This document shows, in pieces, positions 3,583-62,945 of a stretch of DNA of 64,000 bases (position 1 is its first letter; every line of letters starts with the position of its first letter). The position numbers were made by a program, and so were the translations under genes. The notes under the pieces were generated by a model. That model was not told the DNA's origin, did no database searches, and saw only the letters and a program-made list of their open reading frames with translations. The stretch comes from Cordylochernes scorpioides (lineage: Eukaryota; Arthropoda; Arachnida; Pseudoscorpiones; Chernetidae): contig CP092881.1 of the NCBI GenBank assembly GCA_030710605.1, positions 70,609,118-70,673,117 of the forward strand, read 5' to 3'.

Positions 3583-3880
3583 AGGCGATGGCCCCAGAGG
3601 AACCGTTAACACAGCGATACAATTACTGAATAGAGCTGGCTTGCTTATGAGAGTTGTGAGCAGTGTTAACGTACAAATATTACAAGAAAAATCATATAAT
3701 AAAAAGCGAAACGCGTTCGTGACTGGCTTTTCTTGATTTATCAAGAAATTGGGTTGGCCAAATATCAGGGAACGGGCTAAAACAATGTTTAGTTGATTTC
3801 TGTTCCATCAGATGGCGCTCTGCCTTATGTAAAGTACATGTTCTCCTGGTCAGGATATGCTTTATTTATTTATAATAAAA
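3583..3880 (-). repeat. Hammerhead-bearing repeat family A, copy 2
   Basis: Opposite orientation to copy 1, with 'ttcttgatttatcaagaa', 'gttggccaaatatcaggg', 'gatggcgctctgcc' and 'cctggtcaggatatgc'. Only the 3' half of the ribozyme survives on the plus strand at about 3706-3722 (GCGAAA, then CGCGTT, then CGTGA). Its 5' half is replaced by unrelated sequence, so it cannot fold alone. Confidence 0.7.
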
Positions 3881-3966: not shown

Positions 3967-4474
3967 GGTATAACTGACTTCACTTCTAAATAGAAAGAAT
4001 AAGCATACTGAAAAAGTAAACGGTTATGTTTAGCTTAATTTCCATTTCCAAACCTACTATGTTTATAGGACACTTTGTTTTCCAATCTAGGTATAGAACC
4101 TGTCCTAAAATTTCAGTTTGTTTGTATAACACCCTGATTGCCAATATAGACTTATGTCTCCATAGCTAATGTTGGGGCCATGTTGTTTTAATATAGATTT
4201 TCCCGCTCTGCGAAAAAATAAATAAAAGCATTGTCTTGATACATTCAGTAAATGTATTAAAATTCATTTATTAAGAGTGAAAAATTAACCTTTTGCATAT
4301 AATAAAATCTCTAATATAGAAACATACATTATTGCAGATTGGTTTGATTAAAACTGAATTCATATCAGCCTTTTTTATATACACCTTTATATAATATAAG
4401 GTTTTATAAAGTATTTTCTTGTGTTAAGCGTATTTACGCAAATTTGGCCTTAAATACCCATTTCTTGGTTTCTC

Positions 4475-4735
4475 AAGAAGCCTCTGGGACCAAATTTCTT
4501 TTTAGTCGCAGTGGTACAGCCTACTCCACGCTGACGAGCGCCAACAGCGCGAAACGCCGTGGATAGCTTTTCTTTATTTATCAAGTAATTGGGTTGGCCA
4601 AATATCAGGGAACAGGTTAAATCAATGTTTAGTTAATTTCTGTTCCACCAAATGGCGCTCTGCCTTCTGTAAATAACATGTGCTCCTGGTCAGGATATGC
4701 TTTCTTTATTTTCAATATACGTTTACCAATCGAGG
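4475..4735 (-). repeat. Hammerhead-bearing repeat family A, copy 3
   Basis: Carries the family landmarks 'ctctgggaccaaat', the ribozyme core, 'ttggccaaatatcaggg', 'ccaaatggcgctctgcc' and 'cctggtcaggatatgc' in the same order as copy 2. Confidence 0.75.
4526..4562 (+). ncRNA. Type I hammerhead ribozyme, family A copy 3
   Basis: Stem I CCACG at 4526-4530, core CTGACGA at 4531-4537, stem II GCGC with loop CAACA and partner GCGC (4538-4550), then GAAA at 4551-4554, and stem I partner CGTGG at 4558-4562. Both core boxes and stems I and II are perfect. Stem III is three bases shorter than in copies 2 and 4 (ACGC instead of ACGCGTT), which probably damages the cleavage site. Confidence 0.75.
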
Positions 4736-5204: not shown

Positions 5205-6149
5205 GGCCAGGGACTTATCTACTTATATATTTGCCTTATTCTGTCTGTTTGTCTGTATGTCTGAAGCTCACGGATAGAATGCGCGCCCATTGGCTGCCAG
5301 CGAACACGTGGCCTCCCTGCCCCCCTCTAGACAACCCTGTTATCAGCTGTGCGATACATACACCTGTCTATAGCGGCCACTCTAGACAACCCTGTTATCA
5401 ACAGTGTGCTACATCCACCTGTCTAAACAGACCACTCTGTCTATAGCGGCCACTCTAGACAACCCTGTTATCAGCTGTGTGATACATCCACCTGTCTATA
5501 CAGACCACCCTGTCATAGCGGCCACTCTAGGCAACCCTGTTATCAGCTGTGTGATACATCCACCTGTCTATACAGACCACCCTGTATATGGCGGCCATTC
5601 TAGACAACCCTGTTATCTGCTGTGTGATACATACACCTGTCTATAGCGGCCACTCTAGACAACCCTGTTATCATCAGTGTGTTAAATTCACCTGTGTATA
5701 CAGACCACCCTGTCTATAGCGGTCACTCTAGGCAACCCTGTTAACAGCAGTGTGATACATACACCTGTCTATACAGACCACCCTGACTATAGCGACCACT
5801 CTAGACAACCCTGTTATCAGCTGCCTGTCTATACAGACCACCCTGTCTATAGTGGTCACCTTAGGCAACCCTGTTATCATCAGTGTGTTACATTCACCTG
5901 TCTATACAGACCACCCTGTCTATAGCGGTCACCTTAGGCAACCCTGTTATCAGCAGTGTGATACATCCACCTGTCTATACAGACCACCCTGTCTATAGCG
6001 ACCACTCTAGACAACCCTGTTATCAGCTGTGTGATACATCCACCTGTCTATACAGACCACCCTGTCAATAGCGACCACCCAAGACAACGTTTTTAAAATA
6101 TATTCGCACTCGGGTAAACCCCGGGCGTTGCCCGGGCCTTTCGTCTAGT
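5205..6149 (+). mobile_element. Helitron-like element with internal minisatellite
   Basis: The 3' end has the hairpin CCCGGGC/GCCCGGG followed by 'ctttcgt' and CTAG then T at 6145-6149, the hallmark of Helitron 3' ends. The 5' part ('ttatatatttgcc', then repeated tctgt) resembles the 5' ends of the copies at 11.0 and 31.9 kb. The internal segment 'attggctgcc' then 'cacgtg' and 'cctccctgccccc' also occurs at 32.16 kb. Non-autonomous: no Rep/helicase coding region. Minisatellites inside such elements are known from the DINE-1 group. Confidence 0.7.
5333..6082 (+). repeat. Minisatellite, about 72-bp unit
   Basis: About ten imperfect units built from 'ctctagacaaccctgttatc', 'gatacatccacctgtc' and 'tatacagaccaccctgtc'. 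Some units are shortened. Reading frames across it are repeat artefacts. The segment 'cctgtctatagcg' is shared with the pogo-like MITE at 35.24 kb, so the array may have grown from that kind of sequence. Confidence 0.9.
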
Positions 6150-22497: not shown

Positions 22498-23802
22498 CAG
22501 GGTGTACCAGGTAAACTGGGAATTTCAACAATGGTATTTTAACTGAAATTTTTTGCAAGTAAAAATTAAAATATCCGAATGAAATTTGACACGGTAGTAT
22601 ATAAAAGGATATAGTTTTTATTTATTCAATGTAGTTTCCATTATTTGCTACAACAGTCTCGAGGCGAGTGCGGAATGAAGCACAGGCCTTGGCGACGATG
22701 ACCTTGTCCATTTGGGTCATCACCGTGTGAACTGCTTTCTTGACAGACTGGATGGTGGTATGAGGAGCTTTGTTGACATCTCTCTCAACAACGCCCCATA
22801 CATAGTAGTCGAGGGGATTGCAATCTGGAGAATTAGGGGGCCAAATATCAGGACCCCAGTGACTAGAGACGTTAAGTGTCAGCCACGATTGTGTCTTTTT
22901 TGCCTTATGGGCTGGAGCTGAGTCCTGTTGGAAGACATACTTCCTTCCTGCGGCCACCATGTCCATCCAAGGCTTCACAACGGTCTCCAGAACATTGATG
23001 TAGGTGTCAGCGTTCATCCTAAGGCCCTTCTCAAAGAAATGGGGAGGCATGACATCACCTTCACTGCTGATAACGCCAAGGACCATTACGGAGGCAGGAA
23101 ATTTCGTGTGCATCACGACAGGTATCTCTGAGGGGTCTTTACAGATCCAGCGATCATTCCTGGGATTTACCTTTTGGTCCACGTCAAAGTTCTTTTCGTC
23201 AGAGAAGAACCTTAGCATGCCAAAAGAGTCGTGTTTCAGGTTGTTGAGGAGGGCAGCAGCCTTTCCTTTTCTGTTATTCTTCATATTCTCAGTCAGCAAC
23301 TGACCTTTCCGAAGGGCATAAGACTTGAGACCAAGGTCCTCATGGATAGTTCTGACAATTGTCATAGAGCCAACGTCCATTTCCTTGGCTATGGCCCTCA
23401 TGCTCTTCCCAGGGTTTCCATCAATCTTCTCCTTGACATTTTTGACAAATTCTTCGCCTCTTACCCTGTCCGATCGACGCGAGTGCTTTTCCCTTGTAGC
23501 TACCCCCTCTTTGTTACTGTCGGCCTCATCAAACTGCTTCTTGACACGATAAATAGTGGTTTTGGGCAACTTAAGAAAATCCACTATCTCTTTGGGGCTC
23601 CTTCCGGCGCGCAGAGCAACGATGATGGCAGCTCGATTTTCAAATTCTCGGTTACTCTTCATCACTACACTGCGCACACATGTACTGTTTCATTTTACAT
23701 GAATATGGCTACGTAATGAAAAAAAAAAACAAGTTTTTAATCTCAAGTAGTTTTTGTTTTATGGACTGTCAAAGTTAGTCCCAATTTACCTGGTACACCC
23801 TG
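22498..23802 (-). mobile_element. Apparently intact DD37D Tc1/mariner transposon
   Basis: A 1305-bp element bounded by TA (22496-22497 and 23803-23804) with inverted termini 'cagggtgtaccaggtaaa' / 'tttacctggtacaccctg' (one mismatch in the next few bases). It holds a single uninterrupted transposase reading frame on the minus strand. Length, TIRs, TA target and frame all fit a complete copy. Confidence 0.92.
22622..23677 (-). CDS. DD37D Tc1/mariner-superfamily transposase, full length
   Basis: 351 residues. The N-terminal half (about 10-130) looks like two helix-turn-helix DNA-binding units (SPKEIVDFLKLPKTTIYRV; SMRAIAKEMDVGSMTIVRTI). The catalytic domain has D160 (FFSDEKNF), D252 (FQQDSAPAH) and D290 (PPNSPDCNPLDYYVW). 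Thirty-seven residues separate the last two, the spacing that defines the DD37D (maT-like) group rather than classic mariner DD34D. It would act in the nucleus, cutting at the terminal inverted repeats and pasting at TA. No stop or frameshift is seen, so the protein may be active. The start methionine is the first in frame; M6 is an alternative. Confidence 0.93.
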   Translation of the reverse strand: MRSVVMKSNREFENRAAIIVALRAGRSPKEIVDFLKLPKTTIYRVKKQFDEADSNKEGVATREKHSRRSDRVRGEEFVKNVKEKIDGNPGKSMRAIAKEMDVGSMTIVRTIHEDLGLKSYALRKGQLLTENMKNNRKGKAAALLNNLKHDSFGMLRFFSDEKNFDVDQKVNPRNDRWICKDPSEIPVVMHTKFPASVMVLGVISSEGDVMPPHFFEKGLRMNADTYINVLETVVKPWMDMVAAGRKYVFQQDSAPAHKAKKTQSWLTLNVSSHWGPDIWPPNSPDCNPLDYYVWGVVERDVNKAPHTTIQSVKKAVHTVMTQMDKVIVAKACASFRTRLETVVANNGNYIE

Positions 23803-32660: not shown

Positions 32661-32783
32661 TATATATATATATATATGAAAAAAATAAAAGATAAGTGGG
32701 TCAGGTGGTGATATTATAAATAAAGAAGGCATCTCCTGCACATGCACATGTATCGTGGTCAAGAGATGCCTTCTTTATTTATA

Positions 32784-34093
32784 CAAGGTATGTCCCATAA
32801 GTTCCCGGACTTGGTCCATAAAAAAATAAATAAATGAAATATGTAAATAAATTTGACTGTTTATTATAGAAAAAATATCTGGGAACACGGTGGTACCAAT
32901 ATCGAGGCGGTACATTAGCGCGCGCCAAGGTCATTCTAATTTATTTAAAGGTCACACCTAGCGCTGCGGCGATTTTACGATGGAACAAAAATTGAAGCAG
33001 AGGATTTGCATAGAAATTTGTGTGAAACTTCAAATATCAGCAACCGAAACTTTTAAAATACCTAATAAAGCATTCCCCAATGACCCCCCAAAAAGAACAA
33101 CTGTTTTTGAATGACATTCTAGATTTAAAGCTGGCAGAATTTCTATTGAAGATGATCCTCGGCAAGAACGCCCAAAATGTGCAAAAAATCACCGATTTGA
33201 TAAAAGAAAATCCTCGAACCACTTTGCTGGAGCTAAAGCAAGACACAGGCATCTCTAAAACAACGATTGGAAGGAACGTAACCAAAGATTTGAAGCTCAA
33301 AAAGACTCCTGCAAAATTCATCTCAAGATTCCTCACTAATGAGCAAAAACTGTGTCGGCTTGCAACCTGTGAGAACTTGTTGGAAATGACAAGAACGGAT
33401 CCGGAATGGAAAGACAAGATAATCACAGGCGACGAGACATGGGTCTATGACTATGACCCTGAAACCAAGCGTCAACATGCCGAGTGGAGAGGTCAGGGTG
33501 AGCCTAGACCAAAAAAATCCAGGATATTGAAATCCAGAAACAAGGTGTTGCTGGTCGCTTTTTTGGATAACAAGGGCATTGTTCATCACGAGTATCTTCC
33601 TGCAGGCCAAACGGTTATTAAGGAAATGTATTTGGACATTCTTCGCCATCTAAGGGAAGCGATTCGAAAAATAATGCCAGAAAAATGGCCTAATGGTGAC
33701 TGGATCCTACACCATAACAATGCCCGCCCTCACACAGCGCACTTGGTGACGAGTTTTTTTTTTTTGGCTAAAAACGGGACAGAAATCCTACCTCAACCAC
33801 CCTATTCCCCAAACATCGCACCAAATGACTTTTTCCTGTTCACCAAACTTAAAGCAGTTCTAAAAGGAAGACATTTTGACACAAGGGATGACATAATAGA
33901 AAAATCGCTGTTGGCATTGAAGAGCATTCCAAAAGAGCTCTATAAAAACTGTTTCGACAATTTGGGGAAACGATGGCGCTGGTGCGTTGAAGCAAGAGGG
34001 GGGATTACTTTAAAAAGTTTTAATAATTTCTTTTAAAAATATCTTACCTTTTTTTTTATGGACCCAGTCCGGGAACTTATGGAACACATCTTG
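32784..34093 (+). mobile_element. Mariner element, about 1.3 kb, decayed
   Basis: Bounded by TA (32782-32783 and 34094-34095). Inverted termini share 'cataagttcccggact' on the left and its complement on the right, with outer bases diverged ('caaggtatgtcc' versus 'caagatgtgttcc'). Full size for a mariner, carrying one broken transposase gene. Confidence 0.9.
32980..34036 (+). pseudogene. Mariner transposase, inactivated
   Basis: The natural start is ATG at 32980. Codon 45 is TGA (33112-33114), where mariner proteins have tryptophan (V-F-E-W-H). One frameshift near 33170 then moves reading to the frame that is open from 33080 to 34036. That frame keeps the second helix-turn-helix region, D118-numbered TGDETWVYDYDPE, PPYSP and APND (D250). 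The second catalytic aspartate is asparagine (HHNNARPH, codon 33716-33718, GAC to AAC). A 12-T run at about 33754-33765 adds two phenylalanines, giving 36 instead of 34 residues between the last two catalytic positions. Four independent lesions make it dead. Confidence 0.9.
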
Positions 34094-34694: not shown

Positions 34695-34910
34695 TTAAAA
34701 ATAAAAAGGCATATCCTGACCAGGAGCACATGTGCTTTTCAGATGGCAGAGCGCAATCTGGTGGAACAGAAATCAACTAAACATTTATTTACCTTATTAC
34801 CTGATATTTGGCCAACCCAATTTCTTGATAAATCAAGAAAATCCATCCACGAACGCGTTTTGCGCTTTTGGCGCTCGTCAGCGTGGAGTATTTTTAATAT
34901 AAACACCTGA
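34695..34910 (+). repeat. Hammerhead-bearing repeat family A, copy 4
   Basis: Best-preserved family copy: 'ggcatatcctgaccaggagc', 'acatgtgcttttcagatggc', 'aactaaacatttatttacc', 'gatatttggccaacccaatt', 'tcttgataaatcaagaaaa', then the ribozyme on the opposite strand. Confidence 0.8.
34847..34886 (-). ncRNA. Type I hammerhead ribozyme, family A copy 4
   Basis: Minus strand: CCACG (stem I), CTGACGA, GCGC, loop CAAAA, GCGC, then AAA instead of GAAA, then CGCGTT and CGTGG (stem I). Stems I and II and stem III (ACG/CGT) are intact, with U as the cleavage-site base. The single G12-to-A change is expected to abolish activity in this copy. Confidence 0.7.
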
Positions 34911-35235
34911 CCTTTTTATTTATTTTTTATTTTTTTCTATTATTTTTTCACATATAAATATTTGCATCGAGTAATGTTCTTCCGCAAACAATAAGGACAA
35001 GTTAGACATAGAAGGGGAGAGGTTTCCTACCACGCAGAGACTATACCGGGCTATATATGGTTGGTGAGATCGTTTATCAAGATAAAACAATGTGAGTCAT
35101 AGAGAAAAATCAACAAGAAATGTATAACACAGCTTTATTATCGTAAAGTAAAACATCCAATGATCCTCCTATCTAGCCATCATGGAGTTTCACACTACCG
35201 TGCTAGACATGCTGGACGTAGATATTTCACATATA

Positions 35236-35412
35236 CAGTTAAACCTGTCTATAGCGCCCCCTCTAAATAGCGCCTTCCTGTCTATAGCGCCAGATTTTAA
35301 ACATTAAAATGTAAACATTTTACATTAAAAGTGACCTGTCTATAGCACCCCCTCTCTATAGTACCCTATTTTGATGAGTTTCAAGAAGGGACGTTATAGA
35401 CAGGTTTAACTG
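35236..35412 (+). mobile_element. Pogo/Tigger-like MITE, 'cctgtctatag' type
   Basis: Inverted termini CAGTTAAACCTGTCTATAG and CTATAGACAGGTTTAACTG (last part at 35395-35412, one mismatch), flanked by TA. The interior repeats 'cctgtctatagc' three times. Non-coding. Confidence 0.75.
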
Positions 35413-35984: not shown

Positions 35985-36690
35985 TTGGAGAAAAATACAG
36001 CCATATTAACCAATAGTTCATTTTAACTACCGACGTTTCAGTGCTCCCTGTTCCTCTCCCGAGGGGAGAATTTTTTCTCCGAATCAACTTGCAACCAACA
36101 AATGAGCTTAAAAACTATAATATTGAAGTGAAGAAATAGTACAAATGTGATATTGTACTGACATTCACTGCAGGATTTGTGGAAATATGATATCTGATGA
36201 AATCTCCCACTATATCATAGAATGCAAATATTTAGGTGAAGAAAGAGAAAAACTCTTAAAAACACCTTCTGGAGACTTAGCAACCCACTGAAGACGCTGA
36301 GAACTATTTCAGAAAATAAAATATAGCAATAGAACTCTATAATTTCTACAGATCAATTGTAAATAGATTCATACACAAAAGAGGTAGTGAGAAAAGTTTT
36401 AGATCAGATGTGTAAATAAATCCCTTTTCAAACAAAGACTCACGTGCACATGGGGAAAGGGAGAGGAATTGCTGTATTGTTTTTTTTTTTTTTTTGTTGT
36501 ATGGCAAATCCATACAGGGCAATGGGCCCTAATAAAAGCCTTTTTGTTGTTGTTGTTTGTTGTTGATATTGTACTGGGATAAGGTTCATAAATTAAAAAA
36601 TAAAAGGGGGATCTCTCTATCGTGTAATTGAAAGTTGTTAATGGCTTGCGCCATCTATCGTAATAAATATCAACTATCCGTTGATTTTCA
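35985..36690 (+). repeat. Repeat family L/M composite, interrupted by a LINE
   Basis: 35.99-36.16 and 36.58-36.66 kb together match the inverted sequence at 62.69-62.93 kb ('gtacaaatgtgatattgt', 'gggataagg', 'attgaaagttg'). The left part also matches 45.22-45.46 kb ('acagccatattaacca', 'cgacgtttcag'). The 62.9-kb copy lacks the LINE and serves as an empty site. Confidence 0.75.
36161..36563 (+). mobile_element. 5'-truncated LINE with 13-bp TSD
   Basis: The direct repeat 'tgatattgtactg' (36148-36160 and 36564-36576) flanks it exactly. The start encodes CRICGN, SDEISHYIIECKYLGEERE, a zinc-knuckle-type ORF2 C-terminus (C-x2-C, then H, then C). The 3' end has a poly-T tract, 'aataaaagccttt' and a (TTG)n tail. 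Confidence 0.8.
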
Positions 36691-36830
36691 ATTATGCCAG
36701 AATTGGCCAAATAACCATTCTTGATTAATCAATAAAAGCTAACAAAGTACGCGTTTCGGGCTGTTGGCCCTCATCAGCGTGGTGCAAGCTGTACCTCAAC
36801 AACCAAGACACTGGTCATTATAATATTAAG
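36688..36830 (+). repeat. Hammerhead-bearing repeat family A, copy 5 (degenerate)
   Basis: 'attggccaaataaccattct', 'tgattaatcaataaaag', then the ribozyme and 'gtgcaagctgtacctcaa'. More diverged than other copies outside the ribozyme. Confidence 0.65.
36745..36782 (-). ncRNA. Type I hammerhead ribozyme, family A copy 5
   Basis: Minus strand: CCACG, CTGATGA, GGGC, loop CAACA, GCCC, GAAA, CGCGTA, CTTTG. Core boxes, stem II and the self-complementary stem III (ACG/CGT) are all exact, with A at the cleavage base (GUA). The outer stem I strand has diverged, leaving three of five pairs. The surrounding repeat is eroded while the core is kept. Confidence 0.7.
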
Positions 36831-42032: not shown

Positions 42033-42182
42033 CAAAGCGCCATCTAGTGTAACAAAAATAAACTAAACGTTTATTTAATTTGTTCCGTGATATTTGGCCA
42101 ACACATGTGAGCCTGGTCGGGGTATGTCATTTTTATTTTTAATATCAACACCTGACCATTCTTATATTTTTACTGTTTTTTC
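42033..42182 (+). repeat. Repeat family A, copy 6, lacking the ribozyme
   Basis: 'gcgccatctagtg', 'aactaaacgtttatttaatt', 'gatatttggccaac' run straight into an inverted end 'acatgtgagcctggtcgggg', 'tatgtcatttttatttttaa'. The ribozyme segment is missing. A GC-rich LINE starts immediately after. Confidence 0.65.
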
Positions 42183-44240
42183 ACCCACGGCACGCATTTG
42201 TCGAGCTCCGCCTTTTTCCCACCCTGGCGGGTGTATGGCTGCCGGCGGTACGCCGAATTTAGCACGGGCTGAGGGCCCATTAAAAGCTGATCAAGCGCCT
42301 GAAAGGCACAGCAACGTAGCACAGCCCTGTGCAGAGAAGTCTGCAATTTTCAATTCGCAGAGAAATGTCTCGAATACTAGTGAGAGAATTGAAACTTATG
42401 CAAATTTTCCCGCCGGCGGAAGAAATGTAAATTCGGCCGCGCCGTTCAACTTGGCGGCTCTCCCTTCTTCTTCCAACCGCGGTGCCGATGCCCAAAGAAA
42501 CTGGGCAGACTATGCCGAGAATGTGAATTCTGAGGAGGATGACAGCTTCACAGTCGTAAAAGGCAGGAAGAGGCGCCGCGGCTCGCCGGATCTGCCTGCC
42601 ATGGCCGCGCAGTCTATCAGCGCTGGCACTTCTCGCCGACAGCGACCGTCGACGGGACTGATGCCCCAGGTCCAGGAAATCAGGACCACGAGGGCACACG
42701 TCATGGAGGCCAGGGCTCGCCAGGCGTCCTGCACCGAGGAGCAGTGCTGTTTCCTCGAGTTCTCTCCGGAATACCAGACCTACCAGTACATGAAGGCTTT
42801 GGAAAAGGTGGTCGGAAGCACAGGAAACATTGTCCAGTTCACTAAGGTGAACGGGCAATACTTGGTCGGACTCGCCAACAGATCCCTGGCGGAGCGCCTA
42901 GTTCGACAGGGCCTCGAGATCGAGGGAACCCTTCTCAAGACCTTCCCCTTCAGGAGAACTTCAATCAGAGTTACGATTGGGAACCTCCCCTTCTTTGTGG
43001 GAGACGCCGCCGTCATGGATGCTCTCTCCAGATACGGCCGAATAACCTCCATCGCCCCCAAACAGCTTAGGGTTGGAGAGTTTAATTTCACCGCCGGCCG
43101 CCGGGAAGCCTTTATACTCCTCCATGACGGCATAACCGTCGAAATGCTCCCCTCTCGATTCGAACTGAGGATCAAGGGCGAGCCATGGCCAGCTTTCCTG
43201 ACCCACGGAGTCAAATGCTCGAAATGCCGTGGTCAAGGTCACCGAAGAGCAAACTGCCCCCAACTCCATGGGCGTCCTAATACCGCCAGACGGGCCTCAC
43301 CGCCCCCTTCCACCGGCCTTCCACCATCGACCGCACCTGGGCTGCCTGGTCCGTCTCCGGCCGCGCCAACCCCGCCGGCGCCTACCAGCCCAGCTGTCAG
43401 GCTTTCCGGCGCTCAACCAGATGCCCGAGTTGCGTCCCCACCATCTACGGCGCCCCGGCCGTCTACACCAGCGCCTCCGGCCTCATCTGTGCCGGTGGCG
43501 GCCCCTGTTCCTCCAACAGTGGCCCCTGCACCTGTAGATCCCGCGGGCCCTCGCTCGGCAGCAACTGAGCCGACGCCTCCCGCCCGGCCGGACTTCATTG
43601 CCCCGTGTGGCCCTCTGCCTGCACAGGGGACCCTCGGACCTGCGACCCACACACCGGATGTCGACATGACCACCACTGAGGAGCCCTCTGCTCCCTCACC
43701 AGCCGCAGTTTCAACACCCCACCGCCTGCGCCTCAGCCTGCTGGGCCGACACCTTCTGCTCCCCACAAAGAGGATCCGACACCGGCTATGACACCTCCGT
43801 CCCCACCACCTACCCCGATGGAGGAAGACCTGCCGCCGAACTCGGGTGATTGCATTGATAGAATTTTAACAGAGATCATCAGTTCCAAAATCGACGTTGG
43901 ACCCTTGGTCGATGATGAAACCTCCTGGACCGACGCCATTGATGCCATCCTACATCCCCATTCTAGGGCGCCTTTCCTTGCGAGACTCTCGCCTATCTTG
44001 AAGAAAAACTACGCTGTCTTTTTCGAGGCGGCCATCGAGCGCGCTCGGGATTCCCATCCCAGGATCCTCAGCGGGTTGTCCGAGCTCAGGAGGGCCTTGG
44101 CTCCCAAGACTAGACGTCACCGCGGCAAGCGCTAACCTAATGTATATACCCCTCTCTTCTCTCTTTCTCTTTGAGATGTAACATTGTCTAGAAGACAATA
44201 AACTATTTTCAATTGTCAAAAAAAAAATTGTCACACACAC
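42183..44240 (+). mobile_element. Half-LINE: ORF1 plus 3' tail, no reverse transcriptase
   Basis: A short 5' leader, ORF1, then about 90 bp of 3' UTR ending 'attgtctagaagacaataaa', 'ctattttcaattgtc', an A-run and 'attgtc', directly followed by (CA)n. The same 3' end occurs on the minus strand at 56.30-56.38 kb, in a copy that does encode reverse transcriptase. ORF2 is wholly absent here. GC content is far above the surroundings. Confidence 0.8.
42235..44135 (+). pseudogene. LINE ORF1 protein (RRM-like plus CCHC), one frameshift
   Basis: The best start is ATG 42235, because the 47 codons upstream lie in a different repeat. The first frame runs to 43791. Residues about 230-360 look like an RRM-type nucleic-acid-binding fold (SIRVTIGNLPFF, ALSRYGRITSI, EAFILLHDG). 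A perfect zinc knuckle CSKCRGQGHRRANC (C-x2-C-x4-H-x4-C) lies at 43216-43257, followed by a long Pro/Ala-rich linker. In that linker (about 43700-43730, in a C-rich run) one base appears lost; the other frame continues with Pro-rich text into a C-terminal domain ending KTRRHRGKR at 44135. The type resembles Tx1/L1-like ORF1, which binds the element's RNA. Confidence 0.85.
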
Positions 44241-47372: not shown

Positions 47373-47649
47373 CACCTATCCTCCGATTTACACGGTACTT
47401 GTTTTACACGTTTTCGCTTTTACACGGTTTTCCAAATAAGTTTTTTTTTTGTTTTTATCCCACTATACTAAATGCTACTGTGATTGAACACATGCGCTGT
47501 GTACACATCTCACGAGGAATCCCGAGCTTATGTGCTGACTTGCTACACACGCACACTGTGTCTGTATTTCTAATTTTTAAAAAATTATAATTTTCGATTT
47601 ACACGTTTTTCTCAGGAACGTATCTACCGTGTAAATCGGGGGATAGATG
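47373..47649 (+). mobile_element. Tigger-like MITE family H, copy 1
   Basis: Inverted termini 'cacctatcctccgatttaca' and 'tgtaaatcgggggatagatg', flanked by TA. The interior shares 'gtttttatcccactatacta' and 'cgcacactgtgtctgtattt' with the copies at 62.2 and 62.9 kb. Confidence 0.75.
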
Positions 47650-47892
47650 TATTGGGTAAAGTTTTCAACTAGCAATAATCGCTCCTCGGAAGATCCTCAT
47701 TGGCTACGATATCGCCTGTGTATATTCAATATTTGTATAAATGAGAAAACAAGATTTATATTGCAAATAATATGATGAGAAAAAGAAAATAGAAGAAATT
47801 TCACTAAAGTGAAAATAAGATGGGTGCATCTCACAATTATGATAATATATCATAAAATGATATATTTTAGTCAAAAGGCGATATATCAATTA

Positions 47893-51324: not shown

Positions 51325-52455
51325 AACAAAGAAGTATTGGCTCAATAATGTCATCCTTGCGCAGGGGCCATGCCTTGTCTCAATAGTGTCATCCTTGCGC
51401 AGGGGCCATGCCTTGGCTCAATAATGTCATCCTTGCGCAGGGGCCATGCCTTGTCTCAATAGTGTCATCCTTGCGCAGGGGCCATGCCTTGGCTCAATAG
51501 TGTAATCCTTGCGCAGGGGCCATCCCTTGGCTCAATAGTGTCATCCTTGTGCAGGGGCCATGCCTTTGGCTCAATAGTGTCATCCTTGCGCAGGGGCTAT
51601 GCCTTGACTCAATAGTGTCATCCTTGCGCAGGGGCCATGCCTTGGCTCAATAGTGTCATCCTTGCGCAGGGGCCATGCCTTGGCTCAATAGTGCCATCCT
51701 TGCGCAGGGGCCATGCCTTGGCTCAATAGCGTCATCCTTGCGCAGGGGCCATGCCTTGGCTCAATAGCGTCATCCTTGCGCAGGGGCCATGCCTTGGCTC
51801 AATAGTGTCATCCTTGCGCAGGGGCCATGCCTTGGCTCAATAGTGTCATCCTTGCGCAGGGGCCATGCCTTGGCTCAATAGTGTCATCCTTGCGCAGGGG
51901 CCATGCCTTGGCTCAATAGCGTCATCCTTGCGCAGGGGCCATGCCTTGGCTCAATAGCGTCATCCTTGCGCAGGGGCCATGCCTTGGCTCAATAGTGTCA
52001 TCCTTGCGCAGGGGCCATGCCTTGGCTCAATAGTGTCATCCTTGCGCAGGGGCCATGTTTTGGCTCAATAGTGCCATCCTTGCGCAGGGGCCATGCCTTG
52101 GCTCAATAGTGTCATCCTTGCGCAGGGGCCATGCCTTGGCTCAATAGTGTCATCCTTGCGCAGGGGCCATGCCTTGGCTCAATATTGTCATCCTTGCGCA
52201 GGGGCCATGCCTTGGCTCAATAGTGTCATCCTTGCGCAGGGGCCATGCCTTGGCTCAATAGTGTCATCCTTGCGCAGGGGCCATGTTTTGGCTCAATAGT
52301 GTCATCTTCGCGCAGGGGCCATGCCTTGGCTCAATAGTGTCATCCTTGTGCAGGGGCCATGCCTTGGCTCAATAGTGTCATCCTTGCGCAGGGGCCATGC
52401 CTTGGCTCAATAGCGTCATCCTTGTGCAGGGGCCATGCCTTGGCTCAATTGTGGT
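51325..52455 (+). repeat. Minisatellite, 38-bp unit, about 29 copies
   Basis: Units of 'ggctcaatagtgtcatcctt' plus 'gcgcaggggccatgcctt' with a few point variants (gtg/gcg, cat/gtt). Very homogeneous, so recently expanded. The last unit runs into 'ggctcaattgtggtgaacc', which resembles 'ggctcatcagtggtgaacc' of family B, suggesting growth from a family B end. Confidence 0.95.
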
Positions 52456-56443: not shown

Positions 56444-58288
56444 TTACATGATGGTAATTGGAGATGGAGGAAAGAAACCTCGGCGCTGGAGGGTCCCGGA
56501 CCAGGCGATGAGCGGATCCTCCACTGCTTCTCTGAGCCCAACCTGGACAAAGTAGCGATAAATTCGCAATTTTGCCGACGCCAGGATGGAAAGGGCGTCG
56601 TCCTCAAGGCCGGACCCGCCGAAGATCCAAGCCTGCAGGTCAGGGGGCCGCCCTATGATGTTGAAGGCCTCTCTAATGAGAGGCCTGATGGAGGGACAGC
56701 ACCAGTAACGGTGGCTGAGGTAGCGGTCGATGGACCCGCAGGCAGGACAGGAGGGGCCGACCGAGGCAGGATGGGCCGGATGGGGCAGGGCGTGGAGGGC
56801 CAACTTGAGGGCCGCGTCGGCCTCGTGGCCCGAATAGGCGCAGCGCCGCAGCGAGGCCCAGTCGATCCTGGATGGTGGTGGACCGATGGTGGGCGACCAT
56901 CTCGAGGTGAGCCTTGAGATGAGCGTGGCGGCGAGGCGTGGGCGATCCAGGGCCCGTCGGGCCGAGCGGGTCGTGAGCCGTTGAGGAACGGCGTAGCCGT
57001 CCCCCGCAGCACCACGGCCGCAGCAAGGGAGCTAGATGAAGGCGTGGACTCCGCCCCGAAGCCCACGGCGTTCTCGGAGGTCAGCCTCCGACAGAAGGCG
57101 CCCAGGGCCGCGGCGTCAGCCAGGGCCGAGCGCGTAGGTCGGTCGATGAGGTGATCCTCCACAGTGAGGTCCCGGACTCGGGCTCCGCGCCAACGGGCGG
57201 GGGCCAGGAGGTCGGGAGGGCGGATGAACCGGCAGCCGCCGATGATGGGGAGGTCTAGCAGCTGAGCTGTGGGGACCGCCCGGTGGTTGAGGCCCAGGAT
57301 GTTGGAGGCCTCCTCCCACAGCTTCAGCAACCGGAGACGGCGGGGCTGGAGACGGGTGCCGTCCGGTGGAGGGTGGATCCAGGCTTCACCGCTGTTGCCG
57401 CCGACCAGCCAGCTGAAGGCATTTCTGCCTCCGCTAAATCTAGAAGCAGAGTACAGGGGACGCAAGGGCTTGTTAGCCTATATCGTTCCCGGCTTTGTCT
57501 TTGACAAGCCAAATTTTTCCATCTGCCTCCGCGGAGCGCGACCTGCACCCCCTTGAGGCAGGCGAGCTGGAGCTGGGTCGCGAGGTCGAGAAGGCCGAGG
57601 CCTCCGATGGCAACTGGCCTCGCCATGACATTGGCGGGAAGCCACGCCGTGTGGTCTTGTCCCCAGACGAACCTCGCCAGCCGGGCCTGCAGCTTGGCGA
57701 TGGTCGGGGTGATGGCAAATAGCCATGCAGGTGGTGCTGGATGACAGAGCCCACCAGTGTGTTCGCCGCTCTTGCTCGACCGACGAGGGAGAGGCCGCGG
57801 GTGAAGGGCGTCCATCTGCGGCATGCGGTCTCCAGGAGGGCCAGGGGATGCTGCTCCCGGTGGGCGACGGTGCTCCTGGGGGCGATGTCGAGCCCGAGGA
57901 TCCTGATGGAGGTGGTCGACCAGGAGGCGCCGAGAGGGGAGTCGCCGCGGTTGCGCCAGGCGCCGCACCAGAGGCCAGCGCTCTTCCGGAGGTTCACGCC
58001 AACTCCGGAGGCCTGCTTGTAATCTTCGAAGACGGTCGCCACCCGCTCGAAGTCTCCGTCGCGATGGGATAGGAGGACGATGTCGTCGGCGTAGGCGATG
58101 ACATTGCCCACGCCGAGGGTCAACTCCAGGCGACGTAGCAGCGGCCCCGTGGCGATACTGAAGAGTGCGGCGCTCACGGCGCAACCCTGTCTTAGGCCGT
58201 TGAGGAGGGGGAAGGCGGTGGTATAGAAGCCTCCGGCCCGGATTGTAGCGTCCGCCACGGCGTAGAGGATGTGTGTGTGTGTGTGTGT
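56444..58288 (-). pseudogene. LINE ORF2: reverse transcriptase to C-terminus, frameshifted
   Basis: Starts inside the palm domain: LRQGCAVSAALFSIATGPLL, then IAYADDIVLLSH (catalytic YADD at about 58082-58093), then KQASGVGVNLRKS. A frameshift near 57.7 kb leads to KLQARLARFVWGQDHTAWLP and IGGLGLLDLATQ, and later frames give WRGARVRDLTVEDHLI and a zinc-knuckle end CPACGSIDRYLSHRYWCCPS, ending SPITIM at 56444. The endonuclease domain is lost by 5' truncation. The F-W-G, GGLGL and knuckle layout fits the L1/Tx1-like side of LINEs. Not translatable as one protein. Confidence 0.8.
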
Positions 58289-59695: not shown

Positions 59696-59825
59696 AATAT
59701 TGATACAAAGGATTATTTCATTGAATAGAAGTGTCTTAAAGGAATTCGCAGAAAAAGAAGTCTTCAAACCCGAAGATATCAATATAATCTACTTTAAAAA
59801 ACGAAAGAAAAAATAAAAGATAAAA

Positions 59826-60032
59826 AGATCAGGTGTTGAAATCAATATTAAAAATGGCACATCCTGACCAAGAGCACATGTGCTTTACAGAAGGCAGAGC
59901 GCCATCTGGTGGATCAGAAATCAACTAAACATTGATTTAGCCTGTTCCCTGATATTTGGCCAACCCAATTTCTTGATAAATCAAGAAAAGCCATCCACGA
60001 ACGCTTTTCGCGCTTTTTGGCGCTCGTCATTT
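59826..60032 (+). repeat. Hammerhead-bearing repeat family A, copy 7
   Basis: 'gatcaggtgttgaaatcaat', 'cacatcctgaccaagagcac', 'gcagagcgccatctggtgg', 'gatatttggccaacccaatt', then the ribozyme, truncated at 60029. Confidence 0.75.
59995..60029 (-). ncRNA. Hammerhead ribozyme, family A copy 7, 5' truncated
   Basis: Minus strand: TGACGA (first base of the core changed), GCGC, loop CAAAAA, GCGC, GAAA, AGCGTT, CGTGG. One strand of stem I is lost, so this copy cannot cleave. Confidence 0.6.
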
Positions 60033-60244
60033 ATAATCTACTTCATAGTTCACGAATTTATAAAATTTAATTTGAAGTCTCGAGATATCATTCAACCAGC
60101 ACGTATCATTCATTCACTACGAACGTATATTTCCAAATAATTTTGATTTTCAAACAGAAATAATGTAATATATTTTTCTCTCATTATATAGTAGGTATTT
60201 AAACTATGTATATAATAACCTGTATATATAAATGTATATATTTT

Positions 60245-62694: not shown

Positions 62695-62945
62695 ATAATT
62701 TTTCAAATAATAGACACTTCGATCGGTAAATCTTTTTATTGTCTCGACGTTTCGACAAAAATCTTTTGTCCTCGCCAGGAGCGAACAAAAATTAAAACAT
62801 TAGGCAAAGCTGATGAAAAAAGAGCATCTCCTTATCGTGCAACTGAAAGTTGCTGATGACTCGCTCTTTTTTCATAATTATGCACCTTATCCCAGTACAA
62901 TATCACATTTGTACTATTCTTTCACATTAGGCAAAGCGTTAAAAA
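62695..62945 (-). repeat. Repeat family L/M, uninterrupted copy
   Basis: Inverted relative of 36.0-36.7 kb: 'atcggtaaatctttttatt', the ribozyme-like hairpin, 'gcaactgaaagttgctgat', 'cagtacaatatcacattt'. It lacks the LINE found in the other copy. Confidence 0.7.
62732..62791 (-). ncRNA. Hammerhead-like ribozyme motif, family L
   Basis: Minus strand: stem I TTTGTT (internal loop CG) CTC; core CTGGCGA (A6 changed to G); stem II GACAAAA / TTTTTGTC with one bulged G; GAA; self-complementary ACGT; C as cleavage base; stem I partner GAG (internal loop AC) AATAAA. All stems pair; one core base is wrong. Confidence 0.55.

Follow-up and report, generated by a model that had tools for sequence, protein, structure and literature searches.

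Metazoan retrozymes without long terminal repeats (non-LTR retrozymes), as described in PMC7229834, are units of 170–400 nt with a GC content below 45% that contain a type I hammerhead ribozyme and encode no protein. They occur as tandem copies with target duplications, their RNA is strongly paired, and they coexist with Penelope-like elements (PLEs). What moves retrozymes is unsettled: in the available text of PMC7229834, of a 2020 review and of a 2024 review PLEs are named as candidates only, and long interspersed nuclear elements (LINEs) are also named in PMC7229834 and the 2024 review. The proposal that PLEs mobilise retrozymes was made from shared hammerheads, tandem copies and co-occurrence (PMC7229834). 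Here we describe a dispersed repeat of the pseudoscorpion Cordylochernes scorpioides, present in a stretch of 64 kb (the window) and throughout the 2.62 Gb, in 24 contigs, of the genome searched. The repeat shares the features listed above and, judged by its anatomy, is a non-autonomous metazoan non-LTR retrozyme with a putative RNA circle. We estimate a probability of about 0.76 that this retrozyme, with its type I hammerhead, is integrated by the reverse transcriptase (RT)/GIY-YIG endonuclease of PLEs residing in the same genome. Its two-site 3′ ends, its head-to-head composites and the rule that one arm of a composite is short and the other long distinguish it from metazoan retrozymes as described in the available text of PMC7229834.

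Marks of this kind have been published for PLEs. The PLE copies described in PMC3846280 comprise partial tandems and an adjacent inverted pseudo-LTR (pLTR), mostly head to head, with a 31-bp tail that is optional on one inverted pLTR and with target duplications of 8–10 bp. According to the available text of PMC11167929, the PLE protein cuts and extends both target strands, favours AT-rich sites, and starts copying at two sites spaced by a 30–40 bp tail, a signature called unique to PLEs there; the start site did not visibly differ between strands, and hammerhead cleavage was unnecessary in vitro. The retrozyme resembles the PLEs of Adineta vaga (PMC3846280) and Anolis Poseidon (PMC11167929), as described there, in its partial tandems, head-to-head copies, tail optionally on one arm, AT-rich targets, short target duplications and microhomology at joints. 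Unlike endonuclease-containing PLEs, it has neither a reverse transcriptase nor an endonuclease. It is itself not a PLE, and it is probably not a PLE pLTR.

In layout the repeat also resembles HHR_Amex1 of salamanders and newts (PMC7229834), which has a one-pair helix III with a palindromic tetraloop, units of 330–350 bp and a very high copy number, and whose ribozyme works poorly as a monomer and better in dimeric constructs. Unlike HHR_Amex1 as described in the available text of that source, the pseudoscorpion repeat carries PLE-type insertion marks.

Ribozyme and unit across the genome

The repeat falls into two subfamilies, A and B. The majority hammerhead of subfamily A, taken from 34 long copies, reads AGCC-UAC-UCCACG-CUGACGA-GCGC-CAACA-GCGC-GAAA-CGCGU-U-CGUGGA-U-GGCU, and that of subfamily B, to which the window copy at 36.7 kb belongs, reads AGCU-UGC-ACCACG-CUGAUGA-GGGC-CAACA-GCCC-GAAA-CGCGU-C-CGUGGU-U-AGCU. 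Exact intact 40-mers occur genome-wide 6,319 times for A (3,110 + 3,209) and 7,956 times for B (4,003 + 3,953), or 14,275 times for the two forms together, and their reversed patterns 0 times. Core, helix order and cleavage base are those of a type I hammerhead, which the repeat carries and for which self-cleavage is predicted.

Loci were fetched for closer study and are numbered with an L. Those from L002 to L030 and from L062 to L080 are the best matches to the query, not a random sample, and were checked against two listings of 100 hammerhead places, each from one and the same chromosome; L082–L090 were chosen as composite or tandem. L001 and L061 duplicate the window and are excluded from the counts, with L001 standing as a window copy among the 34 aligned rows. 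Three loci, L003, L010 and L077, have the same flanks as L002, L009 and L065. Two of these near-duplicates are among the 34 aligned copies, and the near-duplicates are counted in the shuffle comparison and in the neighbour, end, flank-AT and PLE-proximity counts; they are excluded from the divergence, head-to-head arm and flank-repeat tallies, and the A/B consensus identity was computed without L003 and L010. A strict scan of the window and the fetched loci, most of which had been fetched for holding the repeat, found 51 intact hammerheads (48 without near-duplicates) versus 1 in 1.59 Mb of Markov-shuffled sequence.

The A and B consensus hammerheads differ solely at the free position of CUGANGA, the cleavage base, the internal loop of stem I, and compensated pairs. 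The latter sit in outer and inner stem I and in stem II, with C-G/U-A and U-A/A-U changes in stem I and a G-C/C-G change in stem II. Among 16 sequences, 93.3% of cells are paired in the hammerhead structure, and the covariation score is 0.227 versus 0.101 in shuffles (reached by 0/500), with slid versions of the structure scoring at most 0.053. The covarying changes are few independent events, mostly one A-versus-B set.

In stem III a lone A-U pair is capped by the palindrome CGCG. When folded without restraint, two 58-mers together are more stable than two apart by 7.1 (A) and 5.8 (B) kcal/mol; the pairs in the best-fold dimer differ from those of a double hammerhead, and the best fold of the monomer pairs part of the core. 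In its weak stem III the ribozyme is like the minimal type I hammerheads of PLEs, for which cleavage as dimers has been proposed (Cervera and de la Pena 2014; Lunse et al. 2017, as cited elsewhere). Unlike those, it has a stem I with an internal loop and an outer helix, and a stem II with a 5-nt loop, which together make a full type I layout.

The unit is 340 bp long in A and 339 bp in B, with GC contents of 0.412 and 0.398, and the two consensus units are identical in 241 of 351 aligned columns (69%). Each unit has one type I hammerhead. The longest ATG-initiated frame in a dimer has 84 (A) or 58 (B) codons, and no RT or GIY-YIG endonuclease is encoded. Two-unit RNAs fold more stably than 100 shuffles each (z −6.2 and −5.5). 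Units stand singly, as a partial plus a full unit in tandem with a seamless joint, or in longer arrays, and most loci hold one to two units by BLAST with circular units. The longest array has 5.65 units, the first four of which differ by 0–2 of 338 bases; the array at L081 is mixed in composition. With 13 pieces in the window and a further eight across 96 kb of PLE loci, the number for the whole genome may, as a rough guess, be of the order of 100,000.

Within an insertion, units resemble one another more than they resemble units elsewhere. Divergence within subfamily A is 6.6% between tandem units, 8.1% between head-to-head units and 10.2% between other loci, and the corresponding values in B are 3.9%, 6.5% and 7.1%. 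Non-consensus letters, too, are shared roughly three to four times more within an insertion than between unrelated copies. A single RNA source for all the units of an insertion is only partly borne out, as these units are closer than those of other loci yet not identical. Their closeness is consistent with a shared or related template and is no proof of a circle.

Some loci hold a third hammerhead with different stems, matched by a covariance model of the family's ribozyme (model R1, described below) with 25 to 38 bits in five of 36 loci (L005:1816–1878, L007:1025–1087, L015:1126–1188, L002:987–1051 and L009:1930–1992) and present also at L063 near 3159. It has stem III ACCAUGGU and cleavage at GUC, and BLAST with circular units finds no A or B unit at these places in the five loci. 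This repeat is probably another retrozyme family. Weak twister-P1 matches flank two retrozyme loci (L012:4–89 and L064:1046–1100, both on the minus strand; 33 and 34 bits versus a threshold of 67.2). Sub-threshold matches to Rfam miRNA families were taken as chance matches on inverted repeats.

Ends, arms and flanks of insertions

End positions were taken from BLAST with circular units, because a linear query piles ends artificially at 1 and 340. The 3′ ends fall into two discrete classes, defined as short and long after the ends had been seen. In subfamily A, 34 lie at 294–306 and 17 at 334–339 (51 of 62), with the two sites about 35–40 apart. In subfamily B, 21 lie at 281–298 and 18 at 334–339 or 1–5 (39 of 43), about 45–55 apart. 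The 5′ ends are scattered, with 1/63 (A) and 3/44 (B) in the bins that hold the 3′ ends. In A, 14 of the 63 5′ ends lie at 316–340, approximately one full turn away and beside the start sites.

Neighbouring units are likewise placed asymmetrically. A search with linear units, counting as a neighbour any unit within 60 bp, found one on the 5′ side of 34 of 48 central copies (a tandem unit in 16, an inverted unit in 18) and none there in the other 14, whereas the 3′ side is free of the family in 47 copies and has a tail-to-tail partner in one. After removal of near-duplicates these numbers become 32 and 1 of 45. In two listings, each of the first 100 exact hammerheads of one subfamily, close pairs are head to head in 6 (B) and 9 (A) cases, tail to tail in 1 and 0, and tandem in 12 and 1.

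The strongest single result is the arm rule of head-to-head insertions. Both outer ends could be scored in 29 of 39 pairs, and 26 of these 29 combine one short and one long arm; the other 3 have two short arms and none has two long, where about half would be expected to be short/long (p 6e-6). L082–L090 contribute eight pairs, five of them scorable, and without these loci the tally is 21/24. The joints between arms show an overlap or gap of at most 5 bases in 27 of 39 pairs, at scattered positions in the unit. One joint, at L072:1225–1242 (unit B, approximately position 150), coincides with the palindrome CTTGATTAATCAAG, a short way 3′ of the hammerhead, and its arms overlap by 18 bp, which is reminiscent of hairpin self-priming.

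Repeats of at least 9 bp flank 14 of 29 composites versus 3.1 by chance (0/500 shuffles), and those enclosing composites span 9–17 bp. Around other insertions they number 9/33 versus 1.3 by chance, which gives 23/62 for all insertions versus a shuffle mean of 3.5 (0/500 shuffles); some are plain AT runs (L058, L071, L073). Target duplications are thus clear for part of the insertions only. At L084, 1.10 units on the minus strand and 3.14 units on the plus strand have the same 15 bp on both flanks, and L085, L088 and L089 have 12-bp flank repeats. Flanks contain 78% AT versus 66% overall. Many composites look like single insertion events.

The PLEs of this genome show comparable marks. A search for GIY-YIG domains scored 150 of 17,015 candidates and gave at least 146 matches, and 30 GIY-YIG loci were inspected. 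Close pairs (<5 kb) are head to head in 11 of 11 cases among the matches listed, a tally computed for six contigs with close pairs and made by eye for the remaining contigs. In a comparison of nine PLE sequences by eye, three (L047, L058, L044) end approximately 38 bp beyond three others (L048, L057, L054), and the two alternative 3′ ends belong to one family. Thus, in a genome rich in PLEs, the retrozyme has, like them, two discrete 3′ ends and head-to-head copies with a tail on one arm. In 12 of the 30 loci (L032, L034, L035, L041, L044, L047, L048, L050, L054, L055, L057 and L058) a minimal hammerhead of another type, CUGACGARGACAAAA...GAAAC, lies near the GIY-YIG domain; that of the retrozyme is fuller. 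In one PLE locus a 131-bp tandem repeat (L056:2168–3153) adjoins the GIY-YIG match.

Copies and other features in the window

An earlier note on the window, made from its letters, had described five repeat copies with type I hammerheads and pointed to the established hammerheads of PLEs and metazoan retrozymes, without recognising the repeat itself. The copies lie at 541–579 (−), 4526–4562 (+), 34847–34886 (−), 36745–36782 (−) and 59995–60029 (−), as that note had given them, with the order of motifs it described and with stem II GCGC/GCGC in three copies and GGGC/GCCC in two. Its link to retrozymes agrees with the anatomy of the unit. The count of seven family members depends on the query: a 400-bp query gives seven copies including itself above 68 bits, whereas circular queries give more, namely 13 retrozyme pieces of the two subfamilies grouped into ten insertions.

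On its own the evidence in the window is thin, as it comprises one stem II change and no intact copy. The strict scan of both strands of the 64 kb found 0 intact hammerheads, as the note had anticipated in saying that no copy is perfect. It had erred in crediting the third and fifth copies with two intact core boxes, because the third has AAAA where GAAA is needed, with loss of the catalytic G12, and the fifth, which starts at ATGACGA and has the palindrome AAGCGT, lacks the 5′ strand of stem I as well as C3. In the first copy GAAG replaces GAAA; the second is missing three bases around the cleavage site; the fourth has both boxes and the palindrome intact, with CTTTG instead of CGTGG as the 3′ strand of stem I. 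The unit structure and the insertion anatomy were missed by that reading.

The identity of the ribozyme is borne out by the genome copies and by a family-specific covariance model, R1 (58 nt), built from 14 hammerheads, of which 13 are genome copies and one is the window copy at 541, whose own score is therefore not independent. On both strands of the window R1 matches exactly the five copies and nothing else at E values up to 1 (3e-20, 3.4e-19, 2.6e-18, 4.2e-16 and 2.4e-5, which are rough because calibration was short). A search with Rfam models, proposed in the note as a check, found no hammerhead in the window at gathering score; Hammerhead_HH9 lies below threshold at two copies (24.7 and 20.5 bits versus 52; E 0.089 and 2). 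Since R1 does match, the claim fails this check in a formal sense only. RF00163 had no row among the matches listed in the Rfam scans. In two sets of loci picked for good copies, HH9 matched below threshold at the hammerhead in 10/10 and 7/8 of the loci given.

The unit at 4402–4718 (+) is a nearly full-length member of subfamily A that runs from unit position 321 round to 300 and has a short 3′ end (circular-unit BLAST, 91%). Its hammerhead, at 4516–4570 (+), has both core boxes and lacks the three bases at the cut (R1 68.5 bits, E 2.6e-18). Upstream of it, a 5′-truncated A unit (128–299) at 3706–3877 (+), recognised by circular-unit BLAST and sequence, has a short 3′ end and is missing the first core box. 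Circular-unit BLAST also gave the remaining pieces. The diverged unit at 381–619 (−), nearest to A (80%) and with stem II GGGC/GCCC, is C_w381 in alignment A1; its hammerhead at 533–589 (−) has GAAG for GAAA (R1 71.4 bits, E 3.4e-19) and is the copy that is part of the model. A head-to-head composite at 34695–34936 joins a minus A arm (34695–34890; short, 297) to a plus A arm (34889–34936; long, 334) and has the 9-bp flanking repeat ACATATAAA; the hammerhead in its minus arm, at 34839–34893 (−), has G12 of GAAA changed to A (R1 61.3 bits, E 4.2e-16).

The subfamily B unit at 36564–36819 (−; 86%) has a hammerhead at 36735–36792 (−) with an intact core and a decayed 3′ strand of stem I (R1 74.8 bits, E 3e-20). 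A 5′-truncated A unit (111–336) with a long 3′ end lies at 59796–60029 (−), with a truncated hammerhead at 59987–60044 (−; R1 26.3 bits, E 2.4e-5) and a likely target-site duplication TATAATCTACTT on its 3′ side (59783–59794) and its 5′ side (60032–60043). Two further head-to-head composites consist of A fragments at 42033–42183 (minus 172–244, plus 257–338) and of B fragments at 62813–62928 (minus end 288, short; plus end 2, long). The smallest pieces are an A fragment (258–339) at 32676–32751 (−) and a B fragment (306–338) at 36128–36160 (−).

The window has other features as well. The sole Rfam match at gathering score is a U4 spliceosomal RNA gene or copy at 47565–47729 (−; 69.7 bits). A 38-bp tandem array at 51337–52453 has 29 copies with 95% matches and weak, likely chance, U6-like matches along it. 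Tandem arrays of a 55/73-bp unit (CCTGTCTATAGCGGCCAC...) lie at 5327–6088, with related short arrays at 35244–35366. Open frames resembling Tc1/mariner-type transposases and a LINE-type reverse transcriptase were noted by eye at 22622–23677 (−), 33080–34036 (+) and 57473–58258 (−).

Mover, template and alternatives

What can be read directly in the genome is the pair of 3′ end sites, the truncation at the 5′ side, the seamless tandems, the arms set head to head, the arm rule and the flank repeats; the PLE enzyme, the circle, the activity of the ribozyme and the order of events are what we infer from them. In the reading we favour, tandem copies would be transcribed, and the hammerhead, probably acting as a dimer, would cut at GUU (A) or GUC (B). 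A host ligase may then close the monomers into circles, as the anatomy and the published retrozyme pathway suggest. The PLE protein would open a target rich in AT, where each DNA end would prime copying at one of two RNA start sites (about 35–40 nt apart in A, 45–55 in B), usually one site per DNA end. Copying would run around the RNA, sometimes for more than one turn, and halt at varying points, after which the two complementary DNA arms would meet head to head, nearly without overlap or gap and often flanked by a target duplication of 9–15 bp. A stronger proposal, which we offer tentatively and at somewhat less than even odds, is that a composite is a single PLE event in which the two ends of the cut target are extended from different start sites on one small circular RNA, one site for each DNA end, so that a short arm and a tailed arm meet head to head; the circle produced by the hammerhead would then be the natural template and the arm rule a general readout of insertion by PLE enzymes.

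Several observations weigh against the PLE reading or some part of it. As for the ribozyme, two of five covariation measures are unremarkable (4 pairs changed on both sides, reached by 63/500 shuffles; further pair types, 440/500), and the Rfam gathering score is not reached in the window or the loci (HH9 at best 31.3 bits versus 52). As for the insertions, 10 of 39 pairs have an arm outside both classes (5 with one short arm, 3 with one long, 2 with neither), no clear duplication is seen in 3 of 7 extra composites (L083, L087, L090), and units of one insertion are not identical, with some tandems differing widely (L012, 21 of 131 bases). As for the PLEs, the short ends come from 2 independent sequences, because L048 and L057 share flanks, and 3 of the nine sequences are unclear; PLE and retrozyme tails have no clear homology, and the site spacing of subfamily B (45–55) exceeds the published 30–40 bp. 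The comparison of insertion marks covered published PLEs and the PLEs of this genome, with the LINEs of the genome outside it. Our confidence was lowered because few PLE tail copies are independent, because of the tail length in B, and because the duplication is clear in only about half of the composites. The circle itself is open to question on two further counts: the ends by themselves may fit a circle as well as an uncut tandem transcript, and insertion of uncut RNA by a lizard PLE was observed in vitro (PMC11167929, as available).

These two counts bear on the alternative that a PLE moves the retrozyme from uncut multimeric transcripts, with the ribozyme trimming or regulating and no circle formed, which we consider a real though rather unlikely possibility. 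The 5′ ends are not enriched within 8 bases of the ribozyme cut (1 versus 3.2 expected; 3 versus 2.2). This result speaks against cut linear monomers as the usual template and counts in favour of uncut multimers, and in the available text of PMC11167929 RNA with a dead hammerhead was inserted in vitro as well as wild type. The frequent stops of A copies after about one turn (14 of 63 5′ ends) are instead what a small circle predicts, and the near uniformity of the five-unit array likewise argues against uncut multimers.

PLE machinery might also yield head-to-head copies by hairpin self-priming at palindromes on an antisense template, instead of by priming at both DNA ends. PMC3846280 interprets inverted PLE copies in this way in its available text, and downstream of its hammerhead unit B contains a perfect palindrome, the site of the L072 joint with its 18-bp overlap. 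Most joints, however, are scattered and show 5 bases or less of overlap or gap (27/39). Moreover, self-priming predicts arms that are alike as two copies of one template, whereas the arms differ by 8.1% (A) and 6.5% (B), exceeding tandem neighbours, and self-priming alone does not yield one short and one long outer end. We judge it unlikely.

The units could instead be solo pLTRs of an autonomous PLE and not an independent retrozyme, for type I hammerheads occur in PLEs, whose pLTRs are short and stand in tandem or inverted (PMC3846280, PMC11167929, in their available text). Two PLE loci with an intact A hammerhead, L043 and L058, prompted the idea that A units are pLTRs of nearby PLEs. It is weakened by the A insertions at these loci, which have composite ends of their own, and by the rarity of PLE coding near units: only 4 of 48 unit loci have PLE-like coding within 1.5 kb, and in those four its distance from the unit is no less than 0.5 kb. 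In addition, PLEs of this genome bear the different, minimal hammerhead in 12 of the 30 GIY-YIG loci inspected out of 17,015 candidates, and tandem joints run from unit to unit with no coding sequence between. An origin as solo pLTRs is accordingly improbable.

Fixed 3′ sides, 5′ truncation and flank repeats would also be expected of a short interspersed nuclear element (SINE) moved by a LINE, with twin priming for the head-to-head copies and the ribozyme as a passenger, and a tRNA-like stretch resembling an A box, seen by eye only, lies upstream of the ribozyme. Twin priming is known to leave the 3′ terminus of an element on one arm only. In 29 of the 39 pairs, however, both arms extend to a 3′ end site, 26 of them short plus long, and no poly-A tail is common to the 34 aligned copies, several of which run into AT-rich repeats; we regard a LINE-moved SINE as quite improbable. 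Most unlikely is the spread of a dispersed satellite through DNA recombination, its hammerhead being a defunct fossil. Tandem arrays and the lack of intact window copies speak for it, whereas the flank repeats, the one to two units at most loci, and a hammerhead kept intact while the subfamilies diverged by 31% speak against it.

Among the open-licence papers listed, none reports such insertion marks in retrozymes by its title or the start of its abstract, and a literature search for four stretches of these hammerheads, written as letters, gave no hits. What is likely new is that retrozyme insertions carry the marks published for PLEs. The element is ordinary as a retrozyme and unusual in pointing to its likely mover. 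The question of PLE mobilisation may thereby become testable with one purified protein and one RNA, and so abundant a retrozyme would constitute a large natural data set on insertion by the PLE enzyme.
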